40,602 bases of DNA from Porticoccaceae bacterium (GTDB taxonomy: Bacteria; Pseudomonadota; Gammaproteobacteria; Pseudomonadales; Porticoccaceae). Position 1 is the stretch's first letter; each line of letters starts with the position of its first letter. Location of the stretch: NCBI GenBank assembly GCA_017858135.1, contig JAFMBY010000012.1, positions 1-40,602 of the forward strand, read 5' to 3'. A program made the translations under genes and the position numbers. This document shows positions 25,489-35,062 of this stretch, piece after piece. The notes beneath the pieces are model-generated. The model made no database searches. It was not told the origin of the DNA and was given only the letters and a program-made list of their open reading frames with translations.

Positions 25489-25714
25489 GGTCTATCGCGG
25501 CAGCGACTATTTTGAAGCTCAACTGCTCAAGGGGCTGATGGAGCAGGATGGATTGCAAGTATTTTTGCATGGCGCCGCGCTACAGGGTGGGCTCGGAGAG
25601 GTGCCAGCACTTGGACATCTGTCGATTACGGTTAATGATGCCAATGCTGAGATAGCCCGCGATATTATTCTCGCCTATGAACGCGGCGACTACTCTCTGG
25701 AGGACGATCTGTGA
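25481..25714 (+). CDS. DUF2007 family protein
   Basis: 77 aa. Matches the pattern of small DUF2007 (putative signal-transducing) proteins: an N-terminal strand IEVYRGSDYFEAQLLKGLMEQ, a central glycine-rich loop and the acidic VNDANAEIARDIILAYE. It overlaps the VanZ-like gene by 8 bases and the transporter gene by 4, so it is clearly part of the operon. Its function is unknown. Confidence 0.75.
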   Translation: MIEVYRGSDYFEAQLLKGLMEQDGLQVFLHGAALQGGLGEVPALGHLSITVNDANAEIARDIILAYERGDYSLEDDL

Positions 25715-27099
25715 CGCCCAGGATAAAAAGCCTATCCCTGTGGTTGGCACCCATTGTTGCTGCTCTGGTGACCTTGCTAATGCTTAACTCTGGCTGGCCC
25801 CGTGAGGGTGCGCTGACTGCAGGCCTCACCACACTTTGTGCGCTGTGGTGGATTTTTGAGCCGATCCCCATTCCGGCGACCTCTCTGATTCCATTGGGCG
25901 TCTTTCCATTGCTGGGGATACTCGATGGTAAACAGGTGGCGCAGGCCTATGGCGATCCATTGATTATTCTACTGATGGGCGGTGCCATGTTATCCAAGGC
26001 CATGGAGAAGAGCGGTGCTCACCGACGTCTAGCTCTGTATATGGTCAATCTGTTTGGTGGCGACAACCAGCGCCGCTTGGTGTTGGGTTTTATGGTTGCC
26101 TCGGCGATGCTCAGTATGTGGGTTTCCAACACGGCCACAACCTTAATGTTGTTGCCGATTGCCTATGCTGTGCTCGACAGTGCGGACGAGGACGGGGCCC
26201 GTAAACTCGCTGTACCCCTATTTCTCGGCATTGCCTATGCCGCCAGCATTGGTGGTCTGGGCACCCCTATCGGCTCACCGCCGAATATCATCTTTCTGAA
26301 AATTTATGGCGAAGCCACAGGGTCGATTCCCAGCTTTAGTCAGTGGATGCTTTGGGGGCTGCCCGTTGTGGTGCTGCTGCTACCGTTGGCGGGGCTGTGG
26401 ATTACTCGTCATCTCGGTCAGACTGCGCGGTTAAATATCCCTCAGTCTGGTGCTTGGCGTAGCGAAGAAGCGCGCGTGATGATTGTATTTATACTCACCG
26501 CCTTGGCCTGGATCACCTTGCGAGAACCCTTCGGTGGCTGGACAACATGGCTGGGGGTGCCCACGGCTAACTATGCCGCAGTGGCGCTGACGTCTGTGGT
26601 GGCGATGTTTGTTCTGCCCAACGGTCGCGGCGGCAGACTGCTGGATTGGGAGTCTGCCTCAACCATTCACTGGGGTGTCCTGCTGTTATTTGCCGGAGGT
26701 ATTGCCATTGCTAAAGCCTTTACCGTGACCGGTATTAGCCAGGCGATAGGAGAATCACTCTCTGGCGTAACCCGGCTGTCAATTATCCTGCTGATTGCCG
26801 TGGTGGCTTTGGCGGTCACCTTCCTAACCGAGATTACAAGCAATACCGCGACCACTACATTATTGATGCCGATTCTTGCCGCTGCGTCACTGGGGGCCGG
26901 TTTTGATCCTGCGTTGTTGATGCTGCCTGCGGCTCTGTCTGCAAGTTGCGCCTTTATGTTGCCGGTGGCGACAGCACCCAATGCGATAGTGTTTGGCACT
27001 GGGCAAGTCACCGTGCAGCAAATGGTGCGTGAGGGTTTCGCTTTAAATCTCATGGCCGCAGTGACGATCACCGCAGTGGTCTATTTCTGGTTGGGTTAG
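25711..27099 (+). CDS. DASS/SLC13-family anion transporter
   Basis: 462 aa, GTG start overlapping the preceding TGA. About 11-12 hydrophobic segments. Two inverted-repeat substrate sites are visible: VSNTATTLMLLPIA with GTPIGSPPNIIF in the first half, and ITSNTATTTLLMPIL with TAPNAIVFGTGQV in the second. The SNT motifs bind carboxylate and sodium in this family (VcINDY, CitT). Dicarboxylate or sulfate uptake with Na+ is likely; the exact substrate cannot be read. It ends 3 bases before the convergent barrel gene. Confidence 0.9.
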   Translation: MTPRIKSLSLWLAPIVAALVTLLMLNSGWPREGALTAGLTTLCALWWIFEPIPIPATSLIPLGVFPLLGILDGKQVAQAYGDPLIILLMGGAMLSKAMEKSGAHRRLALYMVNLFGGDNQRRLVLGFMVASAMLSMWVSNTATTLMLLPIAYAVLDSADEDGARKLAVPLFLGIAYAASIGGLGTPIGSPPNIIFLKIYGEATGSIPSFSQWMLWGLPVVVLLLPLAGLWITRHLGQTARLNIPQSGAWRSEEARVMIVFILTALAWITLREPFGGWTTWLGVPTANYAAVALTSVVAMFVLPNGRGGRLLDWESASTIHWGVLLLFAGGIAIAKAFTVTGISQAIGESLSGVTRLSIILLIAVVALAVTFLTEITSNTATTTLLMPILAAASLGAGFDPALLMLPAALSASCAFMLPVATAPNAIVFGTGQVTVQQMVREGFALNLMAAVTITAVVYFWLG

Positions 27100-27102
27100 T
27101 GG

Positions 27103-28146
27103 TCAAAACCGGTAGGGGAATTTGACGCCGAAAGTATAGTCTGATGTATCGCTGGTCAGCCCCAATCCGAGACTGGTCACCATGGCCAGATTTTCCGTCA
27201 GCGCATAGGTAACGCCGAGATTAAAGGTGCCAGTCATGGCATCAGTAGTGACCTGCTTAATGCCATTGATCTTGGCTTTTTCGAAGAACTGTTGCGCGTA
27301 GGAAAAGCTGTAACTCAAACGTTCATTCATGGCGAAGGCCACGCCCAGCGAGAGTTGATAGGTATCCCCAAGCTGTATTTCTCCCGGCATCAGCAAATCA
27401 GGCGTGCTGCCAATATCATCAAAATCTTCAGCAAAGTAGTGCGTGTAACTAAGGCTGGCAAACAAAATTGCTGGATCAGAGGTTTTTACCAGTGACAGCC
27501 CTGTCGCGGCTGACCACAGTCCGGTACCAGTCGGCAGCGCTATCGGCACATTGAGGTTGGTATTGCTGCTGTCGACTTCAATAATATCGATACCATAAGG
27601 CTCGTCACCGGTGGGCGCGGTTACTCTGCTGTTCCAGACAATATCTGGGCGATTGAGGGTTTCAGGAAATAGTCGATAACTGATTCCGATGCTGGCGTCG
27701 CCCAGATCATTGATATCTATATCCGCCTCTGAAGTCGACAGTGAGGAGAGATCTTGGCCTCGAGAGCGGTATTTGGTTACCCTGTAGAGATACGGTACCT
27801 GCAGGTCAAGCTGCAGTCGCGGGGTTGCAGTCCAGCGTGTGGTCAAGGTCGTGGTGATAATATCTCCTTCGATTTCATCGACACTCAGTTCGCCGAGAAA
27901 AATCGCATCGAGAGCCAGAAACCCGCGCAAAATCAGTTCGCTGCGATCGAAGTGGGCATAGCTGTAACCCAGTTCTATAGAAAGAACTTGATCAAAAAGT
28001 GCGTGCTCTTCGAGCAATACATTTTCCACACTTTGACTGCGGTCCGGTGCTTTCTTGCGCCCCACCTCGGTGCTACTAATGCTGTTAGCTGTAGCGGCGG
28101 ACACAGTCAATGCCACGATAGTCGTTAGTATTATTTTTCCCCACAT
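27103..28146 (-). CDS. Outer membrane beta-barrel protein of the Fap-like locus
   Basis: 347 aa. A signal peptide ends near residue 20 (SAATA-NS). A short hydrophilic and helical segment (SVENVLLEEHALFDQ, about 39-53) leads into alternating amphipathic strands through to the terminal aromatic YRF, as in outer membrane barrels. The barrel style resembles the transporter or MetA-pathway-of-phenol-degradation group. It is the last gene of the cluster, the place taken by the FapF secretion pore in Pseudomonas. FapF has a longer N-terminal coiled coil that is not evident here. The proposed role is a pore for the repeat proteins (inference). GAGGAAGG precedes the ATG. Confidence 0.7.
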   Translation of the reverse strand: MWGKIILTTIVALTVSAATANSISSTEVGRKKAPDRSQSVENVLLEEHALFDQVLSIELGYSYAHFDRSELILRGFLALDAIFLGELSVDEIEGDIITTTLTTRWTATPRLQLDLQVPYLYRVTKYRSRGQDLSSLSTSEADIDINDLGDASIGISYRLFPETLNRPDIVWNSRVTAPTGDEPYGIDIIEVDSSNTNLNVPIALPTGTGLWSAATGLSLVKTSDPAILFASLSYTHYFAEDFDDIGSTPDLLMPGEIQLGDTYQLSLGVAFAMNERLSYSFSYAQQFFEKAKINGIKQVTTDAMTGTFNLGVTYALTENLAMVTSLGLGLTSDTSDYTFGVKFPYRF

Positions 28147-28192
28147 GGTTTGCCTTCCTCAGTGTGTAAGTTAAATGTTTGTCATTGCAAAT

Positions 28193-29047
28193 TTAGCGCA
28201 AGCCGATTAGCGACTGGCTGGCAATAGCCAGCGCAGAGGTGCGGGTTGCCTGTAAACTACCAAAGGCAACCTGTACTCGCACATTGTTAACGATGTGCTG
28301 AAAGTTGTTCGAAATCGCCACTGACTGCACCAGTTGACCGGCATCGAGTGCCACATTACGTGAGAGCTTTTGCACTACCACGTCGTTAGCTGCGGTCTCA
28401 ATGGCATAGCCAAGATTGTTGTCGCCAAGGTTGAACTGAGTGGTAATGTCATCGGCGTTTTTATAGGTTTGCGGCGAGTCGACGACTAAATTGGCTGCAG
28501 TTGTCTGATTGGCTGCGGCGCTTTGATTGGCTGCGGCGCTTTGATCGGCCGCGGCGCTTTGATCGGATGGCAATTCCAGTGCATCAATCGCGATACTGTT
28601 AACAATTTGATTGCCGCTGCCCTCCACCTGAATCGTCTGGGCAACACCATGAATATTGTCACTCGCGGGAATGGGGTTTTCGATGGCCGCGCTGTTATCG
28701 TCTCGGTCTCCAAGAGTGCCGTCAATTGTCACTGACGCCCTCGGTCTGTCTCGGTCTCTAATATCCACAGTCACGCTTAATCCAGCGCGGTGGTCGAATG
28801 TTTTGTGATCAGTCCAGTGTGTTGTCATCTCCAGTTTGAAGTAGCGAACATGATCGCGGGCGATAAATTTGCCGCGAATTTCTGACAGCTGCTGCTCAGA
28901 GACTTCGGTAAATTTTGCCCCCGCTGAGGCCGTTGATGAGAGCACGACAGCCAGCATGGCAAGCATCGAAATTGCCAGAGATGTCCTAGGCGGTTTTTTA
29001 GTTGCGGCCAGTTTTCTGTTCATTGCGTCGTAGTTTGATCGGTCCAT
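28193..29047 (-). CDS. Exported Fap-motif protein with GG-leader-like segment (FapE-like)
   Basis: 284 aa from the ATG at 29047, chosen because AAGAGG lies 8 nt upstream; a GTG at 29080 is the alternative. A signal peptide ends near SASA-GAK (residue 43). Right after it, VSEQQLSEIRGK (49-60) resembles the double-glycine leader consensus LSxxELxxIxGG read by C39 peptidases, with GK in place of GG. The segment GVAQTIQVEGSGNQIVNSIA (134-153) repeats the glycine/asparagine motif of the first cluster protein. A QSAAA(D/N) hexapeptide tract (163-186) follows. Function is unknown; it is likely a minor surface or fibre component or a processing partner. Confidence 0.65.
   Translation of the reverse strand: MDRSNYDAMNRKLAATKKPPRTSLAISMLAMLAVVLSSTASAGAKFTEVSEQQLSEIRGKFIARDHVRYFKLEMTTHWTDHKTFDHRAGLSVTVDIRDRDRPRASVTIDGTLGDRDDNSAAIENPIPASDNIHGVAQTIQVEGSGNQIVNSIAIDALELPSDQSAAADQSAAANQSAAANQTTAANLVVDSPQTYKNADDITTQFNLGDNNLGYAIETAANDVVVQKLSRNVALDAGQLVQSVAISNNFQHIVNNVRVQVAFGSLQATRTSALAIASQSLIGLR
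28491..28562 (-). repeat. Four 18-bp tandem repeats inside the FapE-like gene
   Basis: Units at 28491-28508, 28509-28526, 28527-28544 and 28545-28562. Units 2 and 3 are identical (TTGGCTGCGGCGCTTTGA on the plus strand), unit 4 differs by two bases and unit 1 by several. Each encodes a QSAAA(D/N)-type hexapeptide, giving a low-complexity linker that can change length by slippage without a frameshift. Confidence 0.95.
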
Positions 29048-29070
29048 GGTGGTGGCCTCTTGAGTTTGGT

Positions 29071-29113
29071 CATCTATCACGCCGATGTTAATCAGCTCAT
29101 AGTGATAGCGATG
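29071..29113 (-). promoter_or_regulatory. Intercistronic stem-loop between peptidase and FapE-like genes
   Basis: CATC-TATCAC (29071-29080) pairs with GTGATA (29102-29107) and, past a 2-nt bulge, GATG (29110-29113). It begins right at the peptidase stop codon. There is no T-run, so it is not a terminator. It could be an mRNA processing or stabilising element, or it could hide the alternative GTG start at 29080. Confidence 0.4.
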
Positions 29114-29116
29114 ACG

Positions 29117-29839
29117 TTAAAATAAATCAGCATGGGAAAAGCCGAAGTCGAGTAATTCACTGTTGCTGATGGGGCTAAAGCTCTCTAACAGCGCACGTGC
29201 CGTCAGCGGCGGTTGCGAGTGGCTGAGCACAGTCTGCTTATCAAAGCCTTTGCCTATAATTGCAAAAACAACACCGTTCCAGCTTTGCAGAAATTGGTTT
29301 CGTGGAATCACCCGATTGCCGAGAGCGGGGTCGGCGACATAGACGTTGTCACCAATGGTGCGCTTGAGCACAACAAAGTGTTGGTAGCCTTTAATATTGA
29401 GCAGAGTGATGGTTGGAATACGGATGCTATCCAGCGCTTCCGGCTCTACGTTGTAACCGCGGCCACGCAGATCGTGCAGCTGCACGTACTTGCGGATATC
29501 GAGCAATGAAAAGCCCTTTTCGGCGACAACCTCAGGATCGCTAACCTGGAGCATTCCCTGGATCACATCTAGCTCAGAAATGTCCATGTTATAAGCGTAT
29601 TTTAATAGCGTTGTGACGGCGGCTGCGCCGCAACTAAAGTCGTATTTTTGCTCGACCAGATTTTTAAAGCGCGCTTCTCTGACGCTGATAACTGGTTTGC
29701 TAAACTGGCCGAGGCCGGCGAGATGATAGAACTGCAGCTCGGCAGATAATACAGGGCTCGGCTGCACTAGCTGCAATACTAGAAGCAACGCAGAGGCCGC
29801 CCAAGGGGGACTATTAATGATATGGCTAAATTTCAGCAT
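29117..29839 (-). CDS. Periplasmic C39-family cysteine peptidase (FapD-like)
   Basis: 240 aa from the ATG at 29839; a longer TTG-started reading runs into the terminator and is rejected. A signal peptide ends near residue 33 (VLSA-ELQF). The papain-like C39 site is complete: Gln64 (oxyanion hole) and Cys70 in EQKYDFSCGAA, His154 in GYQHFVVLKR and Asp170 in VYVADPALG. Unlike bacteriocin exporters, it has no ABC transporter domains. A signal peptide plus a lone C39 domain is the layout of FapD in Pseudomonas fap operons. Its substrate is probably one of the neighbouring exported proteins. Confidence 0.82.
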   Translation of the reverse strand: MLKFSHIINSPPWAASALLLVLQLVQPSPVLSAELQFYHLAGLGQFSKPVISVREARFKNLVEQKYDFSCGAAAVTTLLKYAYNMDISELDVIQGMLQVSDPEVVAEKGFSLLDIRKYVQLHDLRGRGYNVEPEALDSIRIPTITLLNIKGYQHFVVLKRTIGDNVYVADPALGNRVIPRNQFLQSWNGVVFAIIGKGFDKQTVLSHSQPPLTARALLESFSPISNSELLDFGFSHADLF

Positions 29840-29866
29840 GGCTATTATGTCCGTTAAACTGATGTC

Positions 29867-29900
29867 AAAAAGGCGCTGCTTACTCCAGTAAACAGCGCCT
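29867..29900 (-). terminator. Internal terminator or attenuator between the fibre-like gene and the peptidase gene
   Basis: On the minus strand AGGCGCTG (29900-29893) pairs with CAGCGCCT (29878-29871). One mismatch and five more pairs (TTACT/AGTAA region, 29880-29891) close on a tiny loop, and five T follow. It lies 59 nt past the stop of the large repeat protein and 28 nt before the peptidase ATG, in an otherwise co-directional cluster. Partial readthrough would make the upstream genes more abundant than the downstream ones. Confidence 0.85.
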
Positions 29901-29910
29901 ATCTCGAAGT

Positions 29911-29946
29911 ACAACTAGAACTACAAATCGAAGTACAACTGGAAGT
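29911..29946 (-). repeat. Three degenerate 12-bp tandem repeats before the terminator
   Basis: On the plus strand the units are ACAACTAGAACT, ACAAATCGAAGT and ACAACTGGAAGT, with a partial fourth at 29903-29910. They lie between the fibre-like gene stop and the terminator and would form the loop of the alternative antiterminator pairing. They are non-coding in any supported frame. Confidence 0.8.
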
Positions 29947-29948
29947 GC

Positions 29949-29955
29949 AGGCGCT
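29949..29955 (-). promoter_or_regulatory. Possible antiterminator arm
   Basis: The transcript reads AGCGCCT three bases after the TAA of the large repeat protein. It is perfectly complementary to AGGCGCT (29900-29894), the 5' arm of the terminator hairpin, so the two pairings exclude each other. A ribosome finishing the upstream gene would cover this arm. Function is inferred from complementarity only. Confidence 0.4.
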
Positions 29956-29958
29956 TAT

Positions 29959-31650
29959 TTAGAGCTCGCCGCCACCACCACCAGGAGGTGTTACCGGAAC
30001 ACTCACCTGCGCGATTGCAAGCGCATTGCCCTGCAAGTTGTTAGTGCCTGCTGCTACATTGAGACCAATATTGCCAGAGGCGCCCGCCAATACATTATTA
30101 CCGACAGAAGCGCTGTTGCTGTGCGCTTTGTAGATCGTCTGTGTATAGGTGATCTGCCCGCCCAAGCTGATATTGTCGAGTGCCACATCGCCGGCTTCGG
30201 AGAACAGGAACGCACCGCCGTCACCATTGGGGTCCTGCGCACCCTGCACCTGAGAATCGACATCGATATGGCCGGTGTTGCTGCCGCCAGGGTGAGTAGG
30301 TGATGAATCCCAGGTGTCCAGATAGACATCGCCAACCTGATCGGATGTGCCGCTGTAGGTTCCTGAGGCCTGGCCGCTAAGGCTAACGTCAATCGTATTT
30401 TCAATTGTGTCGCGGACAGGCTGATTGCTGGTCGAGTTACCATAGGCAGCCTGGTTCGAAGACGCCGTGGCAGTCGCCAGTGCGCCGCTAGCAGAGGCCA
30501 ACGCTAACTGATTCGCCTGAACATTGCTGTCACCGGCTGCGATATTAACGCCAATATTACCGGCTGCATCGAGACCCGCATTGCCCCCTAGACTGGCGTC
30601 ATTAGTCGTTCCATAGCTATAGGTGCTATTGTGAATTGCAGCCTGATTAGAGAATGTCTCAGCATCCGCAGCGCCACCAAATACCAGCGTGGCATCGACA
30701 CTGGCTGTCATGCTGTAAGAACGATCGTAAGCGTCATCGTGATGGCTGCTGGTGGATGAGTCGTGGCTGTAACTTGCAGACTTGGAGTAGTCTTTGCTGG
30801 ACTCTTTGCTGCTCGACCAGGTGGCATTTTTCACCAATTGACCATTGCTGTTTTTAGTGCCTGCGGCGCTACCTTTTTTGTAGTAGCCTGATGCATTGGC
30901 ATCGACATTAATGTCTCCAGCAATCTGTGTCGCAGTTATCGTGGTGTCAGAGGTGTTGCCAGCACCATCATCTGTTTGACTGTTTTGCTCGCTCTGTAAA
31001 ATGCTCAGCTCGCCACCGCCATTAACATCAATATGCTTTTCAAATGCACCGCCTTCAACCGCCCAACTCTTTGTGCTGTCGCTGGTCTTAGTGTAATCAG
31101 CAGAGCCACTCTTGGTGTGATTGCTGCTGTGGCTGGCAGAACTTGAATGGCTATGTGCTGCGTTCTCGCTAGATGTGTGATCAAGCACATTGCTGTTGCT
31201 CACGCTCTCGCCAGTACTGAAGTCAAAATCAAAATTGATTTCAGTGCCTTGGGATTGTGAGACCGCCAGTGCCGCAGAGTTTTGCTGAACATTGTTATCA
31301 CCTGCCGCGACATTAAGGCCAATATTACCCGTGGCACCGTTTAGCACATCGTCGCCGGCACTGGCAGTATTGGTGGTTTCACTGCCGTTGTGAACCTGAT
31401 TGCCAGCACTCTTCTGGTTCACTTCAGAGACCGCTGTCGACTTTGAGTCAATCAGGATTAGACCCAATGCCTGGATGTCGCTGGTCAAATAATGGTCCTC
31501 ATAAACATTGATCTCTTTGTTGATCTCAACATTGGAATCCGGACCATGTCTTTTGCCTTCGGCGCTAGACTCTTCATTTGCATAGGCTGCCATGGACAGC
31601 CCAAAAAAAGAGCTTATCGCTAGGGTCAGTGGTAATAATTTCGTCTTCAT
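29959..31650 (-). CDS. Large secreted repeat protein, putative major fibre subunit (FapC-like)
   Basis: 563 aa from the ATG at 31650 (MKTKLLPLTLAISSFFG), with AGGAGA 9 nt upstream; a longer in-frame reading is rejected. A signal peptide ends near AYA-NEE (24). Three near-identical motifs GNIGxNxAAGxxNxQxNxxAxA lie at about 108-130, 364-386 and 526-548, separated by long Ser/Thr/Asn/Gly linkers. The first linker is Ser/His-rich (HSHSSSASHSSNHTKSG, 166-182; SYSHDSSTSSHHDDAYD, 293-309). The mature protein has no cysteine. The tail is PPGGGGGEL. Spaced Gly/Asn/Gln repeats in a low-complexity background are the layout of functional amyloid subunits of the Fap type. No enzymatic domain is seen. Confidence 0.7.
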   Translation of the reverse strand: MKTKLLPLTLAISSFFGLSMAAYANEESSAEGKRHGPDSNVEINKEINVYEDHYLTSDIQALGLILIDSKSTAVSEVNQKSAGNQVHNGSETTNTASAGDDVLNGATGNIGLNVAAGDNNVQQNSAALAVSQSQGTEINFDFDFSTGESVSNSNVLDHTSSENAAHSHSSSASHSSNHTKSGSADYTKTSDSTKSWAVEGGAFEKHIDVNGGGELSILQSEQNSQTDDGAGNTSDTTITATQIAGDINVDANASGYYKKGSAAGTKNSNGQLVKNATWSSSKESSKDYSKSASYSHDSSTSSHHDDAYDRSYSMTASVDATLVFGGAADAETFSNQAAIHNSTYSYGTTNDASLGGNAGLDAAGNIGVNIAAGDSNVQANQLALASASGALATATASSNQAAYGNSTSNQPVRDTIENTIDVSLSGQASGTYSGTSDQVGDVYLDTWDSSPTHPGGSNTGHIDVDSQVQGAQDPNGDGGAFLFSEAGDVALDNISLGGQITYTQTIYKAHSNSASVGNNVLAGASGNIGLNVAAGTNNLQGNALAIAQVSVPVTPPGGGGGEL

Positions 31651-31687
31651 AAGATATATCTCCTGATAAGGTTGTGTTGCTACTGAT

Positions 31688-31704
31688 GTGCAGAGAGACT
31701 GCAC
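31688..31704 (-). promoter_or_regulatory. Intercistronic hairpin between the two repeat-protein genes
   Basis: GTGCAG (31688-31693), an AGAGA loop and CTGCAC (31699-31704) in the 75 nt gap. No T-run follows. It may protect or separate the two parts of the message; that is speculative. Confidence 0.4.
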
Positions 31705-31725
31705 CTCCATTTCGGTCACAGTGAA

Positions 31726-32430
31726 TTACTGCGACTGAACCTGTAAGGTCATTGACAAGGCATTAATGGTGCGATTGCCATTGCCAACAACCTGATTAAT
31801 TTGCACGATACCGCGGGCATCATGGAAAGAATCCTCGGCGAGGTAGGCTTCCATACTCAGCGATTCGCCGCTGCCCTCTAACCGCTCCGCCAAATTGTTG
31901 CCAGCCATTGAAGCCTGAGCGGCCAGTTGTCTGTCGTCGAGCTCCACTGCGGCAACTGAGCCTGGCGCGCCGATTGCTATAGCGACACCATTGAGTTGGC
32001 TGTTACCACTGCCGCTGGACTGATTCACCATCATCATGCCCAACCCCGCTGCGAATGCGTCGGACAAAATCTCCGCCGTCAAGTCATGGCTTGTGACAAA
32101 CTCCTGTGCGTGGCTCTGATATGCATTGTTGAGCTGATTATTTTGTGAGGGGTTGATCGTGGCCGCGCTGAGCCCACCATTCTCTGCGACAGCAATAGCC
32201 GCCGAGTTTTGCTGAATATTGCCATCTCCGGCGCTAATATTAATGGTGCTAACGCCGGACAGCCCCGAGAGTGCGCTCGTGGCTATAGTGCTCTGAGAAA
32301 CCGTTTCCAAATGACCAAGATCATCTTCGGCGGCAGCGCTATTGGCTAGACATGCCAGTGCTGTGCCGGCAAGTAATGCAATGATCAGATTTAAGTCGTG
32401 AAATTTGTTACTCTTCGATTTATTAGTCAT
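31726..32430 (-). CDS. Secreted repeat protein, putative minor fibre subunit or nucleator (FapB-like)
   Basis: 234 aa. Signal peptide with cleavage near SAAA-EDD (34). Three imperfect motifs lie at about 58-82 (STINISAGDGNIQQNSAAIAVA), 128-152 (MMMVNQSSGSGNSQLNGVAIA) and 206-228 (IVQINQVVGNGNRTINALSM). All share an N/Q-x-G-x-GN-x(2)-x-N-x(2)-AIA core that is also found in the next gene and in the FapE-like gene. First gene after the sigma54 promoter. The smaller size and position suggest a nucleator-like subunit; this is by analogy with FapB and CsgB only. Confidence 0.65.
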   Translation of the reverse strand: MTNKSKSNKFHDLNLIIALLAGTALACLANSAAAEDDLGHLETVSQSTIATSALSGLSGVSTINISAGDGNIQQNSAAIAVAENGGLSAATINPSQNNQLNNAYQSHAQEFVTSHDLTAEILSDAFAAGLGMMMVNQSSGSGNSQLNGVAIAIGAPGSVAAVELDDRQLAAQASMAGNNLAERLEGSGESLSMEAYLAEDSFHDARGIVQINQVVGNGNRTINALSMTLQVQSQ

Positions 32431-32513
32431 TTAATACTTTCCCTGTCGACTTGAAATCACTCGGAACATTAGCGTAATAATATTCCGTTCGGCGGCTACA
32501 CTGCTCCTTGCAT

Positions 32514-32529
32514 AGCAAATGCCATGCCA
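32514..32529 (-). promoter_or_regulatory. Sigma54 (-24/-12) promoter
   Basis: The minus strand reads TGGCATGGCATTTGCT. The consensus is TGGCACGNNNNTTGCW, so only one base of the conserved positions differs. The invariant GG and GC are 10 nt apart. The start should be near 32504, leaving a leader of about 74 nt before the first repeat-protein gene. The gene just upstream encodes a sigma54 activator. Confidence 0.82.
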
Positions 32530-32603
32530 TATCTATTAAGCTATTGATATTTAAAAACTAAAATAATAAATCAGAAAATTGGCGAAAAGATATCGGGGGA
32601 GTG

Positions 32604-32668
32604 GTGTCTCTTTTGCGATACAGTTTGTCGAGTTAAGCCGTTCAATAGGCGTAACAAAATGGAGACAC
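32604..32668 (-). promoter_or_regulatory. Candidate upstream activator sites
   Basis: GTGTCTC (32604-32610) and its inverse GAGACAC (32662-32668). The second is part of a small palindrome GACA-C-TGTC (32664-32672). A further TGTCTC lies at 33931-33936, upstream of the activator gene. Spacing suits an enhancer-binding protein; binding itself is unproven. Confidence 0.35.
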
Positions 32669-32766
32669 TGTCTTCTATGAATGCAATATTTTTAGCTAGA
32701 AATTAAAATTAAAATAATAAATTATTTTTTACAAAGTCTTTGGAATAAAATTGATAATAATCAAAA

Positions 32767-33735
32767 TTATATTCTGAGTTTATGTTTGTCCAATAGCCTA
32801 TAGAGTGTCATTCGCGAAACAGAGAGCGCTCGCGCTGCTTGGGAAATGTTATTGCCAGCATGCTCGAGAGCGCTCTTAAGCGCTTTTTTCTCTGCCGCTT
32901 GGCGCGCAGACTCGAGGTCAATTACCTCGGCGTTGGCGTATCGGTCGGGTATGCATAAACCTAAATCGTCAGGCTCTAATAGTTTCCCCTCGCACATGAC
33001 CAGTGCTTTCTGTATTCGGTTCATCAGCTCTCTGACATTGCCAGGCCAGCTGTGACAGCTTAATGCGATAAGTGCATCGTTTGAAAAGTTCCGAGCGGGG
33101 GTGACTGTGGTGGAGAGGAACGCGTTGAGATAGTGATAGGCGAGCGTCTCGATATCTCCTTGCCGCTCTGCTAATCGGGGTGAGTGCAGGTTTAAAACAT
33201 TGAGACGAAAAAATAAATCCTCGCGGAATTCATTGTTACTCACGGCGGTCTCAAGCTTGACATGAGATGCTGCAATGACTCGCACATTAACTTTTTTTAC
33301 TTTCGACGCGCCGACCGGATCGATGCTGCCCTCTTGTAAAAAGCGTAGCAACTTCCCCTGTTGACTCATCGGTAAGTCGGCAATTTCATCGAGAAAAAGG
33401 GTGCCACCATCTGCAGCAGCGATACGGCCAATAGCGCATTTTTCGGCGCCAGTAAAAGCCCCCTTCACGTGTCCAAACAGTTCGGATTCGAGCAGCTCGG
33501 ATGGAATTGCACCGCAGTTGAGAACGACGAAAGGGTGGTTGGCGCGGCGCGGGTTGTTTTCATGGATAGCTTTGGCGATCAGCTCTTTTCCCGTACCGCT
33601 CTCGCCAGAGATAAGAACTGGCGCCTCAGCCCGAGCAATTTTTGTGATATCTTTGAGCAGCTTTATAATTACATCGCTGTTGCCGATAATTTCAGTTTTT
33701 AATTTTATGTCGCAGCGCTCATCGCGATTTTTCAT
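32767..33735 (-). CDS. Sigma54-dependent transcription activator without sensor domain
   Basis: 322 aa from the ATG at 33735, with AAGGA 7 nt upstream. An AAA+ domain fills residues 15-240: Walker A GESGTGKE (44-51), sigma54-contacting GAFTGA (92-97), Walker B GGTLFLDE (110-117) and the WPGNVREL segment (230-237). A Fis-type helix-turn-helix ends the protein (294-318, NISQAARALSVSRMTLYRLL). No receiver, GAF or PAS domain precedes the AAA+ part, as in PspF, so control must come from a partner protein or from its own level. Likely activator of the operon downstream. Confidence 0.92.
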   Translation of the reverse strand: MKNRDERCDIKLKTEIIGNSDVIIKLLKDITKIARAEAPVLISGESGTGKELIAKAIHENNPRRANHPFVVLNCGAIPSELLESELFGHVKGAFTGAEKCAIGRIAAADGGTLFLDEIADLPMSQQGKLLRFLQEGSIDPVGASKVKKVNVRVIAASHVKLETAVSNNEFREDLFFRLNVLNLHSPRLAERQGDIETLAYHYLNAFLSTTVTPARNFSNDALIALSCHSWPGNVRELMNRIQKALVMCEGKLLEPDDLGLCIPDRYANAEVIDLESARQAAEKKALKSALEHAGNNISQAARALSVSRMTLYRLLDKHKLRI

Positions 33736-34015
33736 CAAACAGTCCTTGTTCAATTTAGTCCTTAGATTAGCCTATAGCGTCCTTCAAAAATATCGAAATA
33801 CATTACAGAAATATTTAATTGATTTTCTACTTAATGGCCACAGCTGGGTTTTGATTATAGCGATTGATTTATCTCACACCATTTTAACTGCACAATAACT
33901 TGATCAAAAAAATATAAACGTAAAATATTATGTCTCTAGATAAAAATAGAAAATAGTTTTAGCGTTACCCTTTACGAGGAAAAAATCGGCGGAAGTGGGG
34001 GGTGGAGCGAGAGTG
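33736..34015 (-). other. AT-rich gap between holA and the activator gene
   Basis: No gene is supported. On the minus strand, right after the holA stop, is a C-rich, G-poor stretch (about 33970-34015) such as Rho uses, then AT-rich DNA with a possible -10 TATAAT (plus-strand ATTATA at 33854-33859) but no good -35. No hairpin terminator was seen. A TGTCTC copy lies at 33931-33936. Confidence 0.35.
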
Positions 34016-35062
34016 TTAATGACGTAATAAAAGTTTAATGTTGCCAGGTTGCAATGTCAGACTGCCAGCAAACGAAAGTACCAGTGTCGCCATCTCGTCC
34101 CACACGTCAGCGCTGCGCATGCCCTTAATGCCGCGATCAATGGCGCCTGCCTGGCGCAGGAGCATACGCAGGTGAGCCGGCCGTAAACGCTGCAGCGCGC
34201 CGCGAAACAGCGGTATGCGCTTTTCCCAGACGCCTGAGTTTTTTAGTGCCCAGTCACTGTGTTCGCCGCCAGCAACCAGCTCACTGGCTTTGACCAAAAT
34301 GCGCAGCTCTCGGGTAATCGCCCAGAGCAATGGGACTGCATCGGTGCCCTCATTTTGCAGGCCGCGCAGAGATCGCGCCGCAGACTGTGCATCGCCAATC
34401 AAAATCTTGTCGACAAACTCAAACAAATTGTAGCGTGCACTGTCGGCCACCACCGATGACATGGTGTTGCCATCGACTGTGCCGTCGGTCGCCAGCAGTT
34501 TAAGTTTCTCGATCTCTTGAACAGCAGCTAGCAGGTTGCCCTCAACTCGGTCGGCAAGAATTTGAACCGCTTCTTGATTGGCATTGATATTGGCACTGCG
34601 CAGACGTTGCTGAATCCAGCGCGGCATCTGCTTGGCATCCACTGGCCACACTTGAATATGTGCTCCTGCACTTTCAAGCGTTTTCATCCATTTGCTGTTT
34701 TGTGCACCGCGATCAAGTTTCGGTAGAATGATCAGCACTAGGTTATCTGGATTGGGGTTGGCGCAGAGCTCGCTGAGTGCCGCTGAACCCTTGTCGCCGG
34801 GCTTGCCGTTAGGGATTCGAATCTCGAGAATTTTTTTGTCAGAGAACAGTGACAGTGCGTTGGATTCGTTGAGTATCTGATTCCAATCGAAGTTACCTTC
34901 AGCGTGAAATACTTCGCGCTCCAAAAATGCCTGAGCACGGGCAGCGCCGCGGATGGTATCTGCCGCTTCCTGAGACAGCAGCGGTTCATCACCACTGATG
35001 ACATAACATGGCAACAGTTGTTTCTTAACCTGATCCGCTAGCTGTTCGGCGCGTATTTTCAT
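34016..35062 (-). CDS. holA: DNA polymerase III delta subunit
   Basis: 348 aa (E. coli 343). The clamp-loader subunit that opens the beta clamp. The N-terminus MKIRAEQLADQVKKQLLPCYVISGDEPLL and the phrase LVLIILPKLDRGAQNSKWMK are family typical; the Walker A site is degenerate, as expected for delta. Position after leuS-lptE is the conserved gammaproteobacterial order. Confidence 0.95.
   Translation of the reverse strand: MKIRAEQLADQVKKQLLPCYVISGDEPLLSQEAADTIRGAARAQAFLEREVFHAEGNFDWNQILNESNALSLFSDKKILEIRIPNGKPGDKGSAALSELCANPNPDNLVLIILPKLDRGAQNSKWMKTLESAGAHIQVWPVDAKQMPRWIQQRLRSANINANQEAVQILADRVEGNLLAAVQEIEKLKLLATDGTVDGNTMSSVVADSARYNLFEFVDKILIGDAQSAARSLRGLQNEGTDAVPLLWAITRELRILVKASELVAGGEHSDWALKNSGVWEKRIPLFRGALQRLRPAHLRMLLRQAGAIDRGIKGMRSADVWDEMATLVLSFAGSLTLQPGNIKLLLRH

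Follow-up and report, generated by a model that had tools for sequence, protein, structure and literature searches.

The window analysed here comprises positions 1 to 40,602 of contig JAFMBY010000012.1 of an uncultured Porticoccaceae bacterium. Between positions 27103 and 33753, its minus strand carries six intact, co-directional open reading frames (ORFs), a sigma-54 activator gene followed by fapB, fapC, fapD, fapE and fapF, at the place where the initial annotation had described six such genes. Homology and gene order identify them as a Fap functional-amyloid operon, fapBCDEF, with its own sigma-54 activator. We assign a probability of about 0.87 to this reading in full, that is, to an operon working as proposed below; the Fap identity itself is close to certain, and its working as a secreting machine less so.

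32767..33753, minus strand: sigma-54 activator (bacterial enhancer-binding protein) of a fap-linked clade, by Pfam matches, an AAA+ domain with GAFTGA, a Fis-type helix-turn-helix (HTH) and the clade tree; start at TTG 33753 (328 aa) or ATG 33735 (322 aa)
31726..32430, minus strand: fapB, minor amyloid subunit, 234 aa (NF058557, 71.5 bits, 6.7e-20)
29959..31719, minus strand: fapC, major amyloid subunit, 586 aa as listed (NF058558, 158.7 bits; solved FapC matches; alignment); the probable start is 31650, where most relatives begin
29117..29914, minus strand: fapD, exported C39 peptidase (NF058616, 254.4 bits; active-site residues)
28193..29080, minus strand: fapE, exported minor component (NF058559, 38.6 bits, 6.5e-10)
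27103..28146, minus strand: fapF, outer-membrane pore without a coiled coil, 347 aa (NF058560, 349.6 bits, profile positions 93-420 of 420; structure 5o65)

The initial annotation had seen in these genes the order of parts of Pseudomonas fapBCDEF and had suggested searching the five products against Fap families. Each product matched its own NCBIfam model, below the curated cut-off, and the models followed one another in gene order; FapB, FapC and FapE gave no Pfam match above cut-offs. Comparison was made across 103 loci, namely the window, 26 numbered loci and 79 named ones (106 in all) minus one of each pair of duplicate contigs (L067/L113, L069/L089, L083/L098); further genomes may be represented by both a numbered and a named locus. 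FapD exceeded 190 bits in 28 other numbered genomes, from which the Pseudomonas-family G233 and G326 were left out. Since the named loci were drawn as the best 80 among the FapD matches listed and are biased to close FapD relatives, the counts below are not frequencies in nature. The local hidden Markov models (HMMs) were trained on the same loci, window included. The fapBCDEF set is present in all 26 numbered loci, with FapF cut by the contig end in one and a different order in a few. The neighbourhoods show the fap genes kept together, the opposite of what the initial annotation had named as speaking against its reading. Base composition gave no signal of foreign origin (G+C 0.49 in the island and 0.506 in the rest of the window).

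FapC contains three Fap repeats, whose G, N and Q positions are invariant in 24 aligned FapC sequences and account for the Gly/Asn motif noticed earlier. The invariant alignment columns place them as follows.

31279..31416, minus strand: FapC repeat 1, residues 102-147
30511..30645, minus strand: FapC repeat 2, residues 359-403
30025..30132, minus strand: FapC repeat 3, residues 530-565

Two solved FapC sequences are matched by the window FapC at 5e-9 and 7e-9, and the solved-structure sequence match of FapB is weak (0.034). The predicted FapC model (predicted local distance difference test score, pLDDT, 55.8) is confident around the three repeats only. Its top fold match is the FapC fibre 9u4u (probability 1.00; template-modelling score, TM, 0.80 by target length; E 0.25), not the non-fibrous fold that the initial annotation had set against itself. 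The large subunit contains no cysteine, as stated there; however, since a count by eye on the alignment finds no C-terminal CXXC in 17 of the 24 FapC sequences either, cysteine loss was rejected as a special trait and does not distinguish this FapC. In FapD, the C39 residues reported as intact, Gln89, Cys95, His179 and Asp195, are invariant in 19 of 19 aligned FapD sequences.

A Fil-type pilus system, or another peptidase-plus-barrel relative, was considered in place of Fap. Fil likewise has a C39 peptidase (FilB) and a barrel (FilC) of the same larger families, and the FilC and FilB models match the window proteins at 62.5 and 101.3 bits. The Fap models, however, score far higher for the same two proteins (349.6 and 254.4 bits), the FapB, FapC and FapE models match the other three genes, for which no Fil model was listed, and the fold matches are FapF and FapC. 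With its models so much the weaker, the Fil reading was rejected, and its probability is close to negligible.

The operon shares with Pseudomonas fapABCDEF the order fapB-C-D-E-F, a three-repeat FapC, the C39 active site of FapD and a plugged FapF barrel. It differs in having no fapA that we could find, in a FapF without a coiled coil, and in an insert of about 200 residues between repeats 1 and 2 of FapC. The missing FapA-like gene had been remarked on from the letters alone, and indeed the window's genome (96.5% complete) has nothing that NF058556 matches at E ≤ 0.001. This absence is common among fap systems: the fapA model was matched in 7 of 27 fap genomes searched, and fapA is missing in 6 of 16 genera according to the available part of Dueholm et al. 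2013 (PMC3792158). The family models, the solved-structure sequence and fold matches and the shared gene order bear out a "divergent or reduced Fap-type system". The locus belongs to Fap, as a divergent form and not as a new kind; in this variant, fapA was not found, the activator lacks a sensory domain and the pore lacks a coil.

FapF and the missing coiled coil

FapF aligned with the crystal structure of FapF (5o65) over residues 29-347 (7.5e-80). Its predicted model (pLDDT 78.2) shows a barrel with a plug helix at residues 38-47 (28006..28035, minus strand), and the Foldseek ranks 1-18 for this model are all FapF chains (5o65/5o67/5o68). No frame longer than the 347-aa ORF is open here, and the fapE stop lies just 46 nt away, so that a long coiled coil would not fit; this agrees with the barrel "without an evident long coiled coil" of the initial annotation. 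We consider this difference more interesting than the lack of FapA or of cysteine.

At most 37 residues, signal peptide included, precede the plug motif of the window FapF. The pre-plug length is bimodal among 98 FapF proteins, with at most 89 residues in 26 (upper bounds, since the first possible starts were taken) and at least 97 in 72. A simple home-made heptad test was failed by all 26 short proteins and by 9 of the 72 long ones, and passed by the remaining 63. The coil-less 26 comprise the window and G022, the other genome of its genus with an intact operon, 21 proteins of a Halomonadaceae clade, and L076, L084 and L085. Two of these 21 belong to numbered genomes placed in the clade by the tree, and the coil-bearing L071 sits inside it. 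The periplasmic coiled coil has been stated to be in all FapF homologues (PMC6173795); contrary to this, 26 of 98 FapF proteins are without it, and it is not defining for Fap.

In the FapF tree (a quick search, with long branches flagged), the FapF of the window and that of G022 fall together with four FapF proteins that have the coil, with a Shimodaira–Hasegawa-like approximate likelihood-ratio test (SH-aLRT) support of 100. Coil presence requires four changes on this tree, three of them forced by starred branches. By this tree, the coiled coil was lost separately at least twice; we do not count three losses, because the three forced changes may be one gain and two losses. The Halomonadaceae proteins (e.g. 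L100 and L122) resemble the window FapF in a short N-terminus directly ahead of the plug motif, but their coil loss is separate from that of the window and G022, and the Halomonadaceae activators found keep their N-terminal region, unlike that of the window. A literature search on Halomonas with Fap listed nothing on point.

It is unusual for the export pore to lack this coiled coil, which has been called essential. FapF-beta, which like the window FapF is without the N-terminal domain, is unable to support FapC secretion in E. coli according to the available text of PMC5557850. Natural coil-less pores may be tuned differently from FapF-beta. On the 5o65 alignment, the residues E98, E111, R157, K401 and F103 are kept in the window FapF (numbering from FF102/103 of PMC5557850).

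The sigma-54 activator and the fapB promoter

An activator related to that of the window lies near fap in 86 of 103 loci (own model, >390 bits); a sigma-54 activator is thus the usual companion of the fap loci examined, both in Gammaproteobacteria and in some Betaproteobacteria. It was found in 78 of the 86 loci whose contigs extend 7 kb or more to each side of fapD and in 8 of the 17 with shorter flanks. Its placement is upstream co-directional in 36, downstream reversed in 44, downstream co-directional in 4 and upstream reversed in 2. In a tree of the AAA+ and HTH columns, the 86 fap-linked activators split from 13 other activators of three genomes with an SH-aLRT of 97 (quick search with long branches flagged; non-fap VpsR-domain proteins were not among the sequences).

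These data bear on whether the activator is an unrelated neighbour with no control over fap. Activators of this class are common, and the 2.44-Mb genome holds six full-length PF00158 matches. That density, however, predicts one in only about 5% of 20-kb stretches by our estimate, against 78 of 86 fully flanked loci. Besides, the fap-linked activators form one clade, and a match at E ≤ 1e-75 occurs in only 2 of 50 genomes of the genus, the two with intact fap, which are also the two where the activator and a full-length FapF co-occur. A mere neighbour is thus very unlikely.

Pfam detects a VpsR domain in 65 of the 86 fap-linked activators, and no N-terminal VpsR or other sensory domain in those of the window and G022. 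These two are 328 and 329 aa long, and the other 84 at least 441 aa. Within AAA+, both deviate at residues 67, 96, 112, 125, 146, 166, 195 and 249, positions that hold the same residue in at least 77 of 83 other fap-linked activators. A receiver domain was found in one of the 86, from UBA10333 (L069:11527-12867, same contig as L089), where the front of the protein is NtrC-like (its early AAA+ part shares 80-84% identity with an NtrC-like activator encoded in the genome of the window), the back is of the fap type, and the neighbouring gene codes for an ntrB-like kinase. This protein was therefore rejected as a receiver-domain version of the activator. The contig is either an assembly error or a real fusion, probably a misassembled bin, and we therefore left it out of the argument about sensory domains.

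The fapA-E genes of P. fluorescens PF07 are switched on by RpoN and by BrfA, a regulator encoded next to them (available text of PMC9207406), and the accessible part of PMC13101488 describes BrfA as sensing cyclic di-GMP (c-di-GMP) and BrfA-type factors as widespread in Pseudomonas. Judging by their place, direction and 441-aa length, the Pseudomonas fap-linked activators of our tree are probably BrfA. The window resembles the system seen in these two sources in its adjacent sigma-54 activator, which belongs to the clade holding the Pseudomonas fap-linked activators, and in a -24/-12 promoter ahead of the first fap gene. It differs from BrfA-type, VpsR-domain activators in having no N-terminal domain, and its activator gene lies upstream and co-directional, whereas brfA is downstream and reversed in PF07, again by the available text of PMC9207406. 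Our search of the open-access literature found no survey of BrfA-type factors beyond Pseudomonas, and no literature linking VpsR and FapC was found. That the window's activator is uncoupled from c-di-GMP is a guess based on its missing N-terminal domain.

Two candidate control elements lie between the activator gene and fapB, and rpoN is present in the window's genome.

32514..32529, minus strand: sigma-54 (-24/-12) promoter TGGCATG-N4-TTGCT, starting 99 nt before fapB, with 11 of 12 key positions
32604..32669, minus strand: probable upstream activating sequence, a dyad GTGTCTC (32662-32668) / GAGACAC (32604-32610) around TGTTACG and CTGTATCG

Comparable sigma-54 sites occur 100 and 102 nt before fapB in the closest relatives, G022 and UBA10333. 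When each locus is represented by its best site within about 1 kb, 10 or more of the 12 key positions are present in 58 of 100 loci, compared with 5.2% of dinucleotide shuffles, and the window's score is attained by 0.3% of shuffles. Site positions scatter among loci, partly because some loci begin with fapA. The dyad blocks are conserved in the three closest activator-fapB spacers. A like dyad, TGTCNC..GNGACA, is found in 6 of 58 loci (mean 0.2 and maximum 2 in mononucleotide shuffles), and TGTWAC in 31 of 58 (mean 5.05, maximum 12). We infer that the activator may bind this dyad.

Gain and loss at the holA/transporter junction

The operon and its activator gene are inserted between two genes that form a pair in relatives without fap, and which from their translations we take to be holA and a DASS-type transporter gene.

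34016..35062, minus strand: holA, upstream flank of the inserted unit
25711..27099, plus strand: DASS-type transporter gene, downstream flank

In 39 of 50 genomes of the genus (counted from tables), the two genes face each other on one contig. The gap between them is below 100 nt in 34 genomes, about 6.9-7.0 kb in the window and G022, where fap lies inside, and 278 nt in G336 and 463 nt in G001, both of which hold relics. Thus, among 50 congeneric genomes, fap is kept in two and left as relics in two. The G336 relic (L199) matches the ends of fapB, fapC and fapF of G022 (best 90% identity, 4.9e-45), and the G001 relic (L200) matches the activator-start region and the fapF end (2.5e-32), with no match in any of 400 shuffles. 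A FapF protein search detected the G001 piece (2.2e-10) and missed that of G336. The deletion ends differ between the two, and these remnants show that the fap operon was lost at least twice in the genus. Here the removal of a biofilm amyloid unit can be seen among close relatives of a single genus; a literature search on loss in marine bacteria listed nothing on point.

A LeuS+HolA tree puts the window at the base of a group formed by G785 and G224 (no fap), G001 and G336 (relics) and G022 (fap). With a single gain of the fap unit, four losses are needed in this six-species clade; if the unit was gained twice, both times at this junction, two losses suffice and the total number of steps is smaller. 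Although step counting alone does not favour it, we favour one gain, because both survivors share odd domain losses. At the same junction, G781 (L206:3670-7825) carries a different 4.3-kb insert, which, judging by the translations, encodes a 724-aa exported protein, a sensor-kinase-like protein and a LytTR-like response regulator.

The relics, together with the secretion defect of FapF-beta (as given in the available text of PMC5557850) and the departures of the activator at AAA+ positions constant in most relatives, suit a decaying remnant, in which a coil-less pore cannot secrete and the activator is a truncation product. On the other hand, all six ORFs are intact, both losses are common to G022 while the FapF core is still 90% identical, coil-less FapF occurs in 21 Halomonadaceae-clade proteins, most with complete fap neighbourhoods, and the promoter and dyad are conserved. 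We consider decay unlikely.

Proposed working of the operon and observations in other fap loci

In our preferred reading of a working Fap operon, the activator would bind the dyad at 32604-32669 and open the sigma-54 promoter 99 nt before fapB, a step modelled on the sequence elements and on BrfA/RpoN control of fap in P. fluorescens. The C39 protease FapD would license export, the subunits would exit via the plugged FapF barrel, and FapC, aided by FapB, would assemble cross-beta fibres on the cell surface; amyloid secretion and fibre formation are proposed here from homology with Pseudomonas Fap. Since FapF has no periplasmic coiled coil, plug gating would have to work without it.

Several observations weigh against this reading. 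None of the five Fap products attains its NCBIfam curated cut-off, and the FapE match is weak. We regard these equivalog cut-offs as a naming threshold and not as a defining trait; that of FapD is attained in 8 of 390 genomes of the order and in none of 369 drawn from the class, and therefore serves chiefly to set close relatives of Pseudomonas apart. Outside the repeats the FapC model is poor, and its 9u4u match has, besides E 0.25, a TM of 0.22 by query, with no match at E ≤ 0.001. The critical F102 of FapF is Leu in the window, and given the secretion defect of FapF-beta the window pore may not secrete. Eight of the 86 fully flanked loci have no nearby activator, and 42 of 100 loci score below 10 for the sigma-54 site. 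Repeated loss in sister species would also fit a system of little use.

A more far-reaching idea, which we offer as tentative and rather doubtful, is a minimal Fap machine, in which amyloid export would proceed with coil-free gating and the activator, freed from its sensory domain, would let expression follow activator level instead of c-di-GMP. The cost of such unconditional expression might then explain the repeated operon deletion in sister species.

Two fap loci, L131 and L152, lie on contigs binned as Alphaproteobacteria (Pelagibius, Rhodospirillales), where binning errors are possible; fap was earlier reported in Beta-, Gamma- and Deltaproteobacteria only, according to the available part of PMC3792158. 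In the Halomonadaceae loci L105, L112 and L127, a second, divergent set of FapD-like, FapF-like and activator-like genes lies upstream of fapB. Halomonas sp. NO4 (L067:2736-14439, the L113 contig) carries a tandem fapBCDE duplication with a single fapF and one activator.

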